In this document: piece after piece, positions 47,398 through 57,228 of the stretch | How positions within the stretch are numbered: position 1 is the stretch's first letter | How the letters are laid out: each line of letters starts with the position of its first letter | Assembly (NCBI GenBank): GCA_017307375.1 | Contig: JAFKFH010000006.1 | Span: 310,001-374,000, forward strand | Source of the DNA: Alphaproteobacteria bacterium | GTDB lineage: Bacteria; Pseudomonadota; Alphaproteobacteria; Ferrovibrionales; Ferrovibrionaceae | Direction of reading: 5' to 3' | DNA length: 64,000 nucleotides | Program-made: the position numbers and the translations under genes | The notes under the pieces: model-generated | What the model saw: the letters and a program-made list of their open reading frames with translations, nothing else | Databases searched by the model: none | Told to the model about the DNA's origin: nothing

Positions 47398-47427
47398 TTT
47401 TATCGTGGTCGCGTTGAGGCGACCCAC

Positions 47428-47473
47428 CGCGGCAATTTCAAGGTTCGCTTGCGCCGCGTGACCAAACGCTAAG
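47428..47473 (+). promoter_or_regulatory. SAM-II/SAM-V-like riboswitch upstream of tauA
   Basis: CGCGGC (47428-47433) pairs with GCCGCG (47453-47458) as P1. The loop holds AATTT and the 3' part GCTTGC, and after P1 comes ACCAAACGCTAAG. These are the conserved parts of the H-type pseudoknot SAM-II aptamer (AATTTG, CTTGC, AAACGCTAAAG), in the same order and spacing. The element at 55697 is a second copy. One deviation: GCTAAG instead of GCTAAAG. I rely on memory of the family consensus; a covariance-model search would decide. Confidence 0.7.
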
Positions 47474-47474
47474 C

Positions 47475-47494
47475 GCCGCGGTTCATCCCGCGGC
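47475..47494 (+). other. Hairpin after the tauA riboswitch (possible expression platform)
   Basis: GCCGCGG/CCGCGGC 7-bp stem with a TTCATC loop. Both strands could also pair with the P1 strands of the riboswitch, so this stem and the aptamer are probably mutually exclusive or competing folds. It lies ahead of the GCAGGAG that serves the leader peptide. Confidence 0.5.
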
Positions 47495-47516: not shown

Positions 47517-47552
47517 ATGTCGAACCTCTGTTCGTGTTGTCGCCCGGCCTGA
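47517..47552 (+). CDS. Cysteine-rich leader peptide MSNLCSCCRPA
   Basis: 11 codons with ATG, preceded by GCAGGAG at normal spacing. Cys codons at positions 5, 7 and 8 (TGT, TGT, TGT), then Arg-Pro-Ala and stop. The CxCCRP core matches the leader at 40501. The stop codon lies in a small hairpin (GGCCT-GACC-AGGCC, 47546-47559), and a CCCGTGC/GCACGGG hairpin follows at 47602-47619, 36 bp before tauA. Slow decoding of the Cys codons would change these folds. Confidence 0.68.
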   Translation: MSNLCSCCRPA

Positions 47553-47654: not shown

Positions 47655-48674
47655 ATGTCCGAACGCAACCGCTTTGCCTTTTCGCGCCGCCTTGCAGCCC
47701 TTGCCCTGGGTACCGCAGCCCTTGCCCTGACCTTGCCGGCCCTGGCGGCCGACAAGGTGGCGATCGCCTACCAGACCGTGGTCGAGCCGGCCAAGGTCGC
47801 GCAGGCCGATGGCCTCTACGAGAAGGCCGGCGCCAGGGAGATCGACTGGCGCAAGTTCGATTCGGGCGCCGAGGTGATCGCCGCCGTCGCCTCCGGCGAC
47901 ATCAAGATCGGCTATGTCGGCTCGAGCCCGCTGGCTGCCGCCGCCAGCCGCAGCCTACCGATCAAGACGGTGCTGATCGCCGCCCTGATCGGCGATGCCG
48001 AACAGCTGGTGGTCCGCAACGGCGCCGGCATCGACAAGCCGGCGGATCTCGCCGGCAAGAAGGTCGCCGTACCCTTCGTCTCGACGACCCATTACAGCCT
48101 GCTCGCCGCGCTGAAGCATTGGCAGATCGCGCCGGGCTCGGTGCAGATCCTCAATCTGCGGCCGCCCGAGATCACCGCCGCCTGGACCCGGGGCGACATC
48201 GACGCCGCCTATGTCTGGGATCCGGCGCTGGGCCAGATCAAGGGATCGGGCAAGGTGCTGGTCTCGTCGTCGGAGGTGGCGAAGTGGGGCGCGCCGACCT
48301 TCGATGCCTGGATCGTCCGTGACGACTTCGCCGCCGCCAATCCCGATTTCGTGCAGGCCTTCGTCAAGGTGACGACCGATGCCTATGCCGCCTATCGCGC
48401 CAACCCGAAGGGCTGGGCCGACAAGGCGGCGACCGACAAGATCGTCCGCCTGACCGGCGCCAAGGCCGAGGATGTGCCGGAACTGTTGGCCGGCAGCGTC
48501 TTCCCGACCGCGGCCGAACAGGCCGCGCCGGCGCTGCTGGGCGGCGGCACGGTCGCGGCGATCGCCGAGACCTCGGCCTTCCTGAAGGAACAGAAGCGGA
48601 TCGACGCGGTGCTGCCCGATTACGGCCGCTTCGTCGATGCGCGCTACGTGAAGGCCGCGGCGCTGACCAACTGA
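47655..48674 (+). CDS. tauA: Taurine ABC transporter substrate-binding protein
   Basis: 339 aa with a signal peptide (SRRLAALALGTAALALTLPALAA). The mature part has VAIAYQTVVEPAKVAQADGLYEKAGAREIDWRKFDSGAEVIAAVASGDIKIGYVGSSPLAAAASRSLPI, the TauA hallmark, then VPFVSTTHYSLLAALKHW and WDPALGQIKGSGKVLVSS. It binds taurine or similar sulfonates in the periplasm. First structural gene of a nine-gene operon through 55581, controlled by the leader elements from 47344 onward. Confidence 0.94.
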   Translation: MSERNRFAFSRRLAALALGTAALALTLPALAADKVAIAYQTVVEPAKVAQADGLYEKAGAREIDWRKFDSGAEVIAAVASGDIKIGYVGSSPLAAAASRSLPIKTVLIAALIGDAEQLVVRNGAGIDKPADLAGKKVAVPFVSTTHYSLLAALKHWQIAPGSVQILNLRPPEITAAWTRGDIDAAYVWDPALGQIKGSGKVLVSSSEVAKWGAPTFDAWIVRDDFAAANPDFVQAFVKVTTDAYAAYRANPKGWADKAATDKIVRLTGAKAEDVPELLAGSVFPTAAEQAAPALLGGGTVAAIAETSAFLKEQKRIDAVLPDYGRFVDARYVKAAALTN

Positions 48675-54730: not shown

Positions 54731-55581
54731 GCCTCGCGATCCGCTCCTTCCCCGGCCCGCTCGGGGCCGAGATCACCGGCATCGACCTGAACGAGGAGAT
54801 CGACGAACGTGCCTTTTGGCGCATTCGCGGCGGCTTTCTCGATCATGGCGTCGTCGTCTTCCGCGACCAGGCGGCGTTGACCCCTGCGCGCCAGATCGAC
54901 TTTTCCCGGCGCTTCGGGCCGCTGCAGGTTCATGTGCTGCATCAGTTCCTGCTGCCCGGCCATCCGGAAATCCTGATCGTTTCCAACGTGGTCGAGGATG
55001 GCCAGCCGATCGGGTTGGGCGATGCCGGCCGCTATTGGCATTCCGACCTGTCCTACAAGCCGGTGCCCAGCCTGGGATCGCTCCTGCATGCCCGTGAATT
55101 GCCCGCCGAAGGCGGCGACACGCTGTTTGCCAACATGTATCGCGCCCATGCCACCCTGCCGGCGGCACTGGCCCGCGCGATCGAGGGACGGCAGGCAATC
55201 CATTCCTATCTGAAGCGCTACGACACGCTGCGCGAACAGAACGGGGTTCGGCCGGTCCTGTCGCAGAGCCAGCTGGACCAGGTGCAGGAAGTCGTCCATC
55301 CCGTCGTGCGCGTCCACCCGGATACGCGGCGCAAGGCGCTGTTCGTCAGCGAAGGGTTCACCACCCGCATCGTCGGCCTGCCCGAGGACGAGAGCGACGA
55401 GATCCTGGGCCAGCTTTTTGCCCATTCGACCGCGCCCGACAACCTCTACCGTCATCAGTGGCGGCCCCACGATCTGGTGTTCTGGGACAATCGCTGCACG
55501 GTCCATCTGGCTGTCGGCTGCCCGCCCGACCAGCGCCGCACGCTGTACCGCACCACCGTCCAGGGCGACGTGCCGCACTAA
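54727..55581 (+). CDS. TauD-family Fe/2-oxoglutarate dioxygenase (second copy)
   Basis: 284 aa: GAEITGIDLNEEIDERAFWRIRGGFLDHGVVVFRDQ, iron ligands in YWHSDLSY and NRCTVHLAVG, and RRTLYRTTVQGD with the 2-oxoglutarate arginine. It is clearly different from the tauD at 50361, having about a third of positions alike by eye, so it probably handles another sulfonate or sulfate ester brought in by the adjacent transporter. Last gene of the tau/ssu operon; the 321-bp gap that follows holds the next riboswitch and leader. Confidence 0.9.
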   Translation: MSLAIRSFPGPLGAEITGIDLNEEIDERAFWRIRGGFLDHGVVVFRDQAALTPARQIDFSRRFGPLQVHVLHQFLLPGHPEILIVSNVVEDGQPIGLGDAGRYWHSDLSYKPVPSLGSLLHARELPAEGGDTLFANMYRAHATLPAALARAIEGRQAIHSYLKRYDTLREQNGVRPVLSQSQLDQVQEVVHPVVRVHPDTRRKALFVSEGFTTRIVGLPEDESDEILGQLFAHSTAPDNLYRHQWRPHDLVFWDNRCTVHLAVGCPPDQRRTLYRTTVQGDVPH

Positions 55582-55635
55582 GAACAAAGAGAATTTGTGC
55601 AACAACAGGAAACCGCATCATGTGTCGAAAATAGT

Positions 55636-55663
55636 TTGGCCACTCCCGGAACCGGTGTATATT
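55636..55663 (+). promoter_or_regulatory. Putative promoter of the peroxiredoxin leader
   Basis: TTGGCC (55636-55641), 16-bp spacer, TATATT (55658-55663). Transcript start near 55670, about 25 nt before the riboswitch-like element. The TCACA-N7-TGTGA operator of the other two promoters is not found here. Confidence 0.45.
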
Positions 55664-55696
55664 TGGGTTCGGGCGTGATGGCCTTCCATCGGACCC

Positions 55697-55745
55697 CGCG
55701 GCAATTTGACCTGAGCAGCTTGCGCCGCGTCACCAAACGCTAAAG
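55697..55745 (+). promoter_or_regulatory. SAM-II/SAM-V-like riboswitch upstream of the Cys leader and peroxiredoxin
   Basis: P1 CGCGGC (55697-55702)/GCCGCG (55724-55729); loop begins AATTTGACC and ends AGCTTGC; then TCACCAAACGCTAAAG. All conserved SAM-II parts (AATTTG, CTTGC, AAACGCTAAAG) are present, better than in the tauA copy. GGAG, the ribosome-binding site of the leader peptide, starts 2 nt after the aptamer, the usual SAM-II arrangement in which ligand binding hides the Shine-Dalgarno. Confidence 0.78.
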
Positions 55746-55757
55746 CGGAGACCTCAT

Positions 55758-55820
55758 ATGACTGACCTTCGGTCCCTTCCTCTCCTCGATACTCGCGAAC
55801 GCTGTAGCGCCTGTTGTTGA
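55758..55820 (+). CDS. Cysteine-rich leader peptide ending RERCSACC
   Basis: 20 codons from ATG (eight bases after GGAG) to TGA: MTDLRSLPLL followed by DTRERCSACC. Cys codons at positions 16, 19 and 20, the last two being the final sense codons. Directly at the stop a hairpin begins (GATGCG/CGCATC, 55819-55835), so a ribosome paused on the Cys codons would cover it. The peptide has no similarity to the other two leaders except the Cx(x)CC cluster. Confidence 0.68.
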   Translation: MTDLRSLPLLDTRERCSACC

Positions 55821-55888
55821 TGCGCCTGTCGCATCGACCCCCCGGGATATCGCCATCATCGTTTGCAATTCCCCGGCCTGCGCCGGGG
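55819..55888 (+). other. Two leader hairpins between the Cys peptide and the 64-aa gene
   Basis: Hairpin 1: GATGCG/CGCATC (55819-55835), overlapping the leader stop. Hairpin 2: CCCCGGC/GCCGGGG with a CTGC loop (55871-55888), ending two bases before the AGGAG of the next gene. Neither has a T-run, which argues for control at translation initiation. Confidence 0.5.
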
Positions 55889-55902
55889 GCAGGAGAGTTG
55901 CC

Positions 55903-56097
55903 ATGCCGACCGCTCGCGCCAACGCCTTCGTCATAGAAATCACCGGCATCGCTGCCGGCCTCGCCGTACCCGAACGCGGCGGGTTTCGCTTCTACGCCGC
56001 CGACCAACGCTTTGCCGGGCTCGACGGCAGCCGCTTCGGCGCGCTGGACCAGATCGAGCGCGCGGGACGCCGCCAGGTGCGGCCGACCGCCGACTAG
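55903..56097 (+). CDS. Conserved-looking 64-aa protein of unknown function
   Basis: MPTARANAFVIEITGIAAGL... with a compact pattern of beta-strand-like segments (AFVIEITGIAAGLAVPERGGFRFYAADQRF, LDGSRFGALDQIERAGRRQ). A strong GGCAGGAGAG precedes the ATG, and codon use fits its neighbours, so it is very likely real. It has no cysteine, no signal peptide and no membrane segment. It lies 30 bp before the peroxiredoxin in the same operon, under riboswitch and Cys-leader control. I do not recognise the family. Confidence 0.75.
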   Translation: MPTARANAFVIEITGIAAGLAVPERGGFRFYAADQRFAGLDGSRFGALDQIERAGRRQVRPTAD

Positions 56098-56127
56098 CAT
56101 TCACAGGCCTTCAAGGAGGAACGCTGC

Positions 56128-56763
56128 ATGAGCATCCAACTCGGCCAGATCGCGCCGGACTTCACCCAGGTCTCGACCCAGGGCGAGATCAACTTCCATT
56201 CCTGGCTGGGCGACAGCTGGGGCATCCTGTTCTCGCACCCCAAGGACTACACGCCGGTCTGCACGACCGAGCTTGCCGCCGTCGCGCGGCTGAAGCCGGA
56301 GTTCGACAAGCGCAACGTCAAGCCGATCGGCCTGTCGGTCGATCCGCTCGGCTCGCATGAGGGCTGGTCGGCCGACATTCACGAGACGCAGGGCATCGCC
56401 CCGAACTTTCCCTTGCTGGCCGATGCCGACCGCAAGGTGGCGACGCTCTACGGCATGATCCATCCGCAGGCCGATCCGTCGATCACCGTGCGGTCGGTCT
56501 ATATCATCGACCCGAACAAGAAGGTCCGGCTGACCCTGACCTATCCGCCCTCGACCGGGCGCAACTTCGCCGAGATCCTGCGGGTGATCGACAGCCTGCA
56601 ACTGACCGACAAGCACAAGGTGGCGACGCCGGTCGACTGGAAGCCGGGCGACGACGTGATCATCGTCCCGTCGCTGTCGGACGAGGACGCCAAGAGCCGC
56701 TTCCCGGAAGGCTGGAAGACGTTGAAGCCGTACCTGCGCGTCGTCAAGCAGCCGGCGGCGTGA
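56128..56763 (+). CDS. 1-Cys peroxiredoxin (Prx6/AhpC-TSA family)
   Basis: 211 aa. The peroxidatic cysteine is Cys45 in the PKDYTPVCTTE motif (PxxxTxxC); WGILFSHPKD, LSVDPLGSHEGW and the Prx6-type C-terminal domain (DWKPGDDVIIVPSLSDEDAKSRFPEGWKTLKPYLR) follow. No other cysteine is seen, so this is a 1-Cys enzyme reducing peroxides with external thiols. Being under SAM and Cys leader control links thiol or sulfite stress to sulfur status. AAGGAGGAA precedes the ATG. Confidence 0.93.
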   Translation: MSIQLGQIAPDFTQVSTQGEINFHSWLGDSWGILFSHPKDYTPVCTTELAAVARLKPEFDKRNVKPIGLSVDPLGSHEGWSADIHETQGIAPNFPLLADADRKVATLYGMIHPQADPSITVRSVYIIDPNKKVRLTLTYPPSTGRNFAEILRVIDSLQLTDKHKVATPVDWKPGDDVIIVPSLSDEDAKSRFPEGWKTLKPYLRVVKQPAA

Positions 56764-56778: not shown

Positions 56779-57228
56779 TCAGATCTCGTACATCGGGATG
56801 TACTGGCCGCCCGCCGCCTCGCGCGCATGCATGTCGGCGACCGAGGTCGAATCGAGCACCGCCGCGATCTGGTCGCGAACCTGCTGCATCACCTGGCGAA
56901 TGCCGCAGGACGCCTCGTCCTGGCAATCGTCGCAACGGCGATAGGCCGTGCGGCTGACGCAGGCGATCGGCGCCACCGGCCCATCCAGCAGGCGCACCAC
57001 GCGGCCGATGGTGATCGCCTCGGGCTGCTGGGCCAGGCGATAGCCGCCGCCCTTGCCCTTGCGCGACGTCAGCATGCCGTCGTTCTTGAGCTGCAGCAGG
57101 ATGGCGTCGAGGAATTTTTTCGGTATCCTCTGCTCCTCCGCAATCTCGGCTCCCTGCACCGCGCGATCGCGATAGGTGGTGAGGTAGAGCAGGGCCTTGA
57201 GCCCGTATTTCGCTTTGCTCGTTAACAT
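56779..57228 (-). CDS. Rrf2-family transcriptional regulator (IscR/CymR type)
   Basis: 149 aa: winged helix MLTSKAKYGLKALLYLTTYRDRAVQGAEIAEEQRIPKKFLDAILLQLKNDGMLTSRKGKGGGYRLAQ and a C-terminal part with cysteines at 90, 99, 102 and 108 (CVSRTAYRRCDDCQDEASC). Such clusters hold FeS in IscR/NsrR/RsrR, while CymR is a cysteine-metabolism regulator of the same family. Located at the edge of the sulfur island and convergent with the peroxiredoxin gene. A TCCAC-N7-GTGGA dyad immediately upstream of the start suggests autoregulation. Confidence 0.9.
   Translation of the reverse strand: MLTSKAKYGLKALLYLTTYRDRAVQGAEIAEEQRIPKKFLDAILLQLKNDGMLTSRKGKGGGYRLAQQPEAITIGRVVRLLDGPVAPIACVSRTAYRRCDDCQDEASCGIRQVMQQVRDQIAAVLDSTSVADMHAREAAGGQYIPMYEI

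Follow-up and report, generated by a model that had tools for sequence, protein, structure and literature searches.

The window (the whole 64-kb stretch of DNA that was analysed) is a sulfur island. Genes for a sulfate-binding protein and two CysTW-type permeases lie at 44.6-47.3 kb, a variant aptamer with a leader encoding MSNLCSCCRPA and tauABCD at 47.4-51.2 kb, and an SsuA-like/ABC set with a TauD-type dioxygenase at 52.0-55.6 kb, followed by a further leader at 55696. CysT, CysW, SsuB, SsuC, TauC and the first TauD were named by position and from reading of their translations. The window contains two such leaders, and the parts of both, together with the tauA, 64-aa and peroxiredoxin genes, are on the + strand. 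The leader at 55696 is followed by a gene for a 64-aa protein (55903..56097) and one for a 1-Cys peroxiredoxin with AhpC-TSA and 1-cysPrx_C domains (56128..56763). A preliminary description of this locus had listed a SAM-II-type aptamer, a Cys leader ORF, hairpins, the 64-aa gene and the peroxiredoxin gene, and each of these parts was recovered in place. An Rrf2-family regulator is encoded at 56779-57228, convergent with the peroxiredoxin gene; its matches at subfamily level, CymR and IscR among them, all fall below cut-offs.

By alignment, the 64-aa protein belongs to a conserved small-protein family whose members follow 35 of 67 leaders. Neither Pfam nor NCBIfam gave a match for it. Its structure was confidently predicted as a beta-beta-beta-alpha-alpha fold, and this fold had no match in the PDB. 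Members of the family are about 60-70 aa long, carry the motif AY.IE..AGIVV..F.FFAS and stand right after many leaders.

The aptamer at 55696..55747 is of a SAM-II type with a short P2. P1 is formed by CGCGGC (55697-55702) and GCCGCG (55724-55729), and the pseudoknot P2 by GCTTGC (55718-55723) and GCTAAAGC (55739-55746); AATTTGA lies in the loop, 5′ of GCTTGC. The SAM-II core AUUUGA / GCUUGC / GCUAAAG is thus retained along with P1 and the pseudoknot. Just 5′ of the aptamer is a putative sigma-70-like promoter, TTGGCC-16-TATATT (55636..55663), recognised by consensus match (one found, 0.1 expected). When 1 kb was searched against all 4227 Rfam families, the SAM-II model RF00521 matched at 55688-55764 with 26.9 bits (E 8e-4), below its gathering score of 36 bits; the element is therefore classed as divergent SAM-II-type and not as a certified SAM-II member. 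A scan of the whole 64-kb window at the Rfam gathering score gave no match, so Rfam alone would miss this aptamer. SAM-V, the other family suggested for comparison, was absent among matches up to E 10 in 55400-56400 and is rejected.

R2, a covariance model made from 16 copies, scored the 55696 aptamer at 72.2 bits (E 1.5e-16 per genome), a value that is partly circular because the window copy is among the 16. Independently of R2, a blastn search of 60 relatives with 55640-55900 as query recovered the same stretch of about 50 nt from other genera, as well as from two further places in the same genome, one of them 47427. The 55696 aptamer is better than a chance match, and we regard it as a putative SAM sensor.

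Within the family, R2 separates the variant (at least 54 bits) from canonical SAM-II (28-34 bits). With an E-value limit of 1e-8, it matched 76 of the 386 alphaproteobacterial genomes sampled, representing 54 of 276 genera; counted with these is a related subtype that mostly occurs as the upstream member of a tandem. Scanning named genomes with a sequence pattern yielded at least 120 loci; Azospirillum, Bosea, Microvirga, Chelatococcus, Rhodopseudomonas and Niveispirillum are among the matches listed. In that pattern, one strand of P1 and the beginning of P3 are fixed, and copies like that at 55696 are undersampled. As such a scan is no test of those stems, P1 was examined on a model-chosen alignment of 49 distinct sequences, in which 99.6% of P1 cells were paired and three of the five pairs had changed on both sides. 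The covariation score for P1 and P2 together was 0.128, against 0.028 for shuffled sequences; P2 is near-invariant and hence uninformative by covariation. Most copies have a P3 hairpin downstream of the aptamer, with arms that vary with compensation, which is missing from the window copy at 55696.

Only two of 20 variant loci tested matched Rfam at the gathering score. The variant is a SAM-II subtype that the Rfam cut-off mostly misses. These absent matches at 18 of the 20 loci, scores well below those of canonical SAM-II and a copy at 47427 that is short of one A in GCUAAAG would also be compatible with a short-P2 element that binds some sulfur metabolite other than SAM, or no ligand. The core SAM-II nucleotides are, however, kept in nearly all copies, and we consider a different ligand, or none, distinctly improbable.

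Tandem SAM-II elements were seen at several loci (L023, L053, L069, L070, L071, L073 and others), with a subtype having a GCGCC P1 upstream of the variant. Several of these upstream copies are followed by a terminator-like stem and a T-run, and none of the seven tested was followed by a Cys ORF. Elsewhere the variant aptamer stands directly before a gene, without a leader ORF (L079, L135, L139 and L172); the genes, named from translations, include OsmC-like genes (L079, L135) and one for a sulfate-binding-type protein (L139).

All three variant copies in the genome of the window carry a Cys ORF, and they precede tauABCD, metNIQ and the 64-aa/peroxiredoxin pair. The second aptamer in the window, at 47427..47475 (R2 54.5 bits), has ATTTCA in place of the loop sequence ATTTGA, and GCTAAG for GCTAAAG; judged from these changes, its ligand binding may differ. 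Its leader ORF, MSNLCSCCRPA followed by a stop (47517..47552), lies ahead of tauA (47655-48674; TIGR01729). The third genomic copy precedes an ORF reading MLMCCCGRVL and stop, and then metN-metI-metQ, named from their translations. Among 65 proteins encoded downstream of homologous loci, 22 were MetQ/NlpA and 15 MetN (ABC-NIL), with sulfonate/taurine-type and sulfate-type binding proteins also present; NlpA/MetQ, MetN and sulfonate-type proteins dominate. The genes after these leaders are mostly those of sulfur-compound transporters. Sulfur or methionine genes, as expected for SAM-II, follow the homologues and the two other copies in the same genome; the copy at 55696 leads instead into the 64-aa gene and the peroxiredoxin gene.

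The leader ORF of the 55696 copy begins with ATG at 55758, preceded by a Shine-Dalgarno (SD) sequence GGAG (55747..55750) that abuts P2, and ends at a TGA stop (55818-55820). Its 20 codons (55758..55820) specify MTDLRSLPLLDTRERCSACC, ending CSACC, and the three Cys codons, at 55803, 55812 and 55815, are all TGT. There are 69 short ORFs with an SD and ATG in the 64-kb window. Just two have at least three Cys in their last 12 codons, and these two directly follow the two aptamers. The Cys content of the 55758 ORF is above chance.

Equivalent ORFs are present at homologous loci. After a typical aptamer comes an SD and then a short ORF ending CCR, CCCRR, CRCRR or alike. Of 87 dereplicated variant loci, 44 have an ORF with at least two Cys in its last 12 codons, as against none of 38 canonical SAM-II loci, so that the tandem of aptamer and Cys ORF, first described for the single locus, is a conserved pairing. 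Counting ORFs with ATG starts, 42 were observed where dinucleotide shuffles gave an expectation of 0.19. When loci were selected on the aptamer alone, 16 of 36 had a Cys ORF. An ORF with at least two Cys is missing at about half of the variant loci, where there is one Cys or the aptamer runs straight into the gene. These loci, together with aptamers directly before a gene and the existence of uORF-coupled riboswitches (PMC11260477), would fit a riboswitch that alone matters, with the short ORF serving only to couple translation to the next gene and its Cys codons incidental. Such a reading leaves the excess over 0.19 expected ORFs, and the absence of Cys ORFs from all 38 canonical loci, without an explanation. 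The codon bias described below also speaks against it, and we hold it to be very improbable.

Substitutions were counted in 20 disjoint pairs of related leaders. They fell on the three codon positions in the numbers 59/72/60, and 112 of 140 changed codons were non-synonymous and 28 synonymous; no peptide-level selection on the leader was detected in these pairs. At 47 of 55 Cys positions, however, the same Cys codon was kept. TGT is favoured over the other Cys codon by 162:82 in the leaders and occurs at 4:36 in neighbouring genes (Fisher p 9e-12, optimistic, like the other p-values here, because the loci are phylogenetically non-independent). The Cys cluster lies 3-6 codons before the leader stop. 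The leaders have a short ORF with an SD and candidate regulatory codons near its end, and a peptide free to vary while its Cys codons are kept is the signature expected of a codon-sensing attenuator.

A Cys-containing uORF that senses copper is known in Bordetella (PMC9426467), and in the window a peroxiredoxin gene lies downstream. The ORF could accordingly be imagined to sense metal or thiol stress through nascent Cys residues, like CruR, and not Cys-tRNA. In CruR, however, the CXXC is fixed and its 45-residue distance from RAPP is conserved (PMC9426467), whereas in the leaders both Cys spacing and peptide vary freely and it is the codons and the choice of TGT that are kept. As the downstream genes are also mostly for sulfur-compound transporters, we give metal or thiol sensing hardly any credence.

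The SD of the 64-aa gene is AGGAG at 55891-55895. In the minimum free energy (MFE) fold, CTCTCCT inside the leader ORF (55780..55786) is complementary to AGGAGAG (55891-55897) at this SD, and a hairpin covers the last Cys codon and the stop (55816..55838; arms 55816-55824 and 55830-55838). A second hairpin, CCCCGGC/GCCGGGG (55871..55888; arms 55871-55877 and 55882-55888), has no T-run and abuts the SD. For the window copy, folding put the probability that this SD is unpaired at 0.02 in the free leader. The value rose to 0.23 when a ribosome occupied the first Cys codon, and shuffled leaders gave 0.20 (sd 0.12). Across loci, the SD of the next gene was unpaired with a probability of 0.19 in the free leader; placing a ribosome on the Cys codons raised this to 0.36 (p 3e-4), and codon-shuffled leaders gave 0.30 (p 1e-4). 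Since accessibility tends to increase whenever sequence is removed, more weight belongs to the codon-shuffle control. Ribosomes placed on the Cys codons and at the stop were not distinguished by predicted accessibility (p 0.14), and the energy or complementarity of a direct leader:SD duplex was not significant overall (p 0.11). In these models, then, the SD of the next gene is predicted to be masked in free leader RNA and exposed by a ribosome on the leader.

In a Hyphomicrobiales subset (L078, L111, L116 and L177), the Ser-Cys-Arg-Arg codons of the leader are near-perfectly complementary to the SD region of the next gene, and the Cys wobble base differs together with its partner. The duplex is extreme in L111 and L116, where it spans 11-15 bp and takes in a Cys codon. 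At the upstream end of the leader, folding of the other copies gave an accessibility of the leader SD of 0.38, compared with 0.48 for shuffled spacers (p 4e-4). A switch between P3 and an anti-SD pairing is clear in Microvirga, is not general, and is absent from the window copy.

Intrinsic terminator-like stems between leader and gene were found at 4 of 35 loci against 2.1 in shuffles. This lack of enrichment tells against an attenuator terminator and points to translational or Rho control downstream; of these, masking of the SD at the level of translation looks the more likely. The same two sensors could instead act through Rho-dependent termination: an untranslated or vacated leader would expose a C-rich Rho site in the spacer, which a ribosome stalled at the terminal Cys codons would mask, as in tnaC. 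Between leader and gene, the spacer is rich in C and poor in G (C 0.40, G 0.27; C exceeds G at 33 of 34 loci) relative to leader ORF, main gene and upstream sequence, the regions with which it was compared. The Cys codons lie near the end of the ORF, and the Mtb Mbox provides a precedent (PMC12810186). Nevertheless, the SD-masking prediction works without Rho, and we judge the Rho version unlikely.

A SAM-II-type element directly before a tiny Cys-ending ORF, upstream of sulfur-uptake genes in many alphaproteobacteria, suggests that one leader responds to two sulfur signals. The best explanation, which we think probably correct, is a two-sensor sulfur leader that turns its genes on under a joint shortage of SAM and Cys-tRNA. 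The SAM-II-type aptamer with its short P2 would bind SAM. P2 of the window copy directly adjoins the leader SD, as it should in a SAM-II element that switches translation off, so bound SAM would stop translation of the leader. Without SAM, ribosomes would translate the short ORF with its mostly TGT Cys codons near the end, and low Cys-tRNA would stall them at the terminal Cys codons. Free leader RNA would fold onto the SD of the first structural gene and mask it; a ribosome held on the leader would keep that SD open. The output would be a NOR function: off at high SAM, when the leader is untranslated; off with ample Cys-tRNA, when the ribosome leaves; and on when both are short. Sequence comparison establishes the aptamer subtype, its link with Cys ORFs, the retained Cys codons, the TGT bias and the gene context; masking of the next SD is a folding prediction, and SAM as ligand, the stalling and the NOR output are inferences. 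We infer that SAM control of leader translation followed by Cys-tRNA control downstream, as originally proposed, is the best reading of the data. The wider claim, a new alphaproteobacterial leader family in which a SAM riboswitch gates a Cys-codon attenuator and a NOR of SAM and Cys-tRNA governs sulfur scavenging operons, seems to us evenly poised between true and false. If true, cysteine and SAM, two end products of sulfur assimilation, would be linked in one RNA without a protein regulator. This would explain how alphaproteobacteria associated with soil and plants, such as Azospirillum, Bosea, Microvirga, Chelatococcus and Rhodopseudomonas, control their importers of sulfonate, taurine, sulfate and methionine.

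The nearest two-input analogue is mgtA of Salmonella, which combines Mg2+ sensing with a proline-codon leader. The variant shares with SAM-II (SAM_alpha, RF00521) P1, the AUUUGA loop, the GCUUGC and GCUAAAG core and, as where SAM-II acts on translation, an SD beside P2. It differs in its CGCGG/CCGCG P1, its short P2, scores mostly below the Rfam cut-off, the Cys ORF that follows and downstream genes that are mostly for transporters; the published SAM_alpha regulon comprises metY, metA, metX and related genes (PMC4239095). Tandem SAM-II elements were already known (PMC9481103). In Sinorhizobium meliloti metA, SAM-II likewise controls an SD and reaches its gene at a distance, but a terminator lies between AUG1 and AUG2, and no Cys leader ORF was reported (PMC9373788).

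A riboswitch acting on a regulatory ORF, previously thought unusual here, is rare and yet not unprecedented: in Mtb, B12 riboswitches and the Mbox act on uORF translation, with other aptamers and, in the accessible parts of these reports, no amino-acid codon sensor described in the ORF (PMC11260477, PMC12810186). Cys codons also report cysteine supply in the mycobacterial polycysteine uORFs (Canestrari 2020, cited in PMC9031893), which are leaderless and for which the citing paper describes no riboswitch. In Rhodobacterales, uORFC-8-2 before cysS is likewise an alphaproteobacterial uORF with tandem Cys codons, but it has an intrinsic terminator, UGC codons dominate, there is no aptamer, and it is confined to cysS (PMC8632094). 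Riboswitches that control uORFs and Cys attenuators thus both have precedents. In the open-licence literature, we found no report of the two combined, with SAM-II or another SAM riboswitch acting as the gate of a Cys-codon leader.
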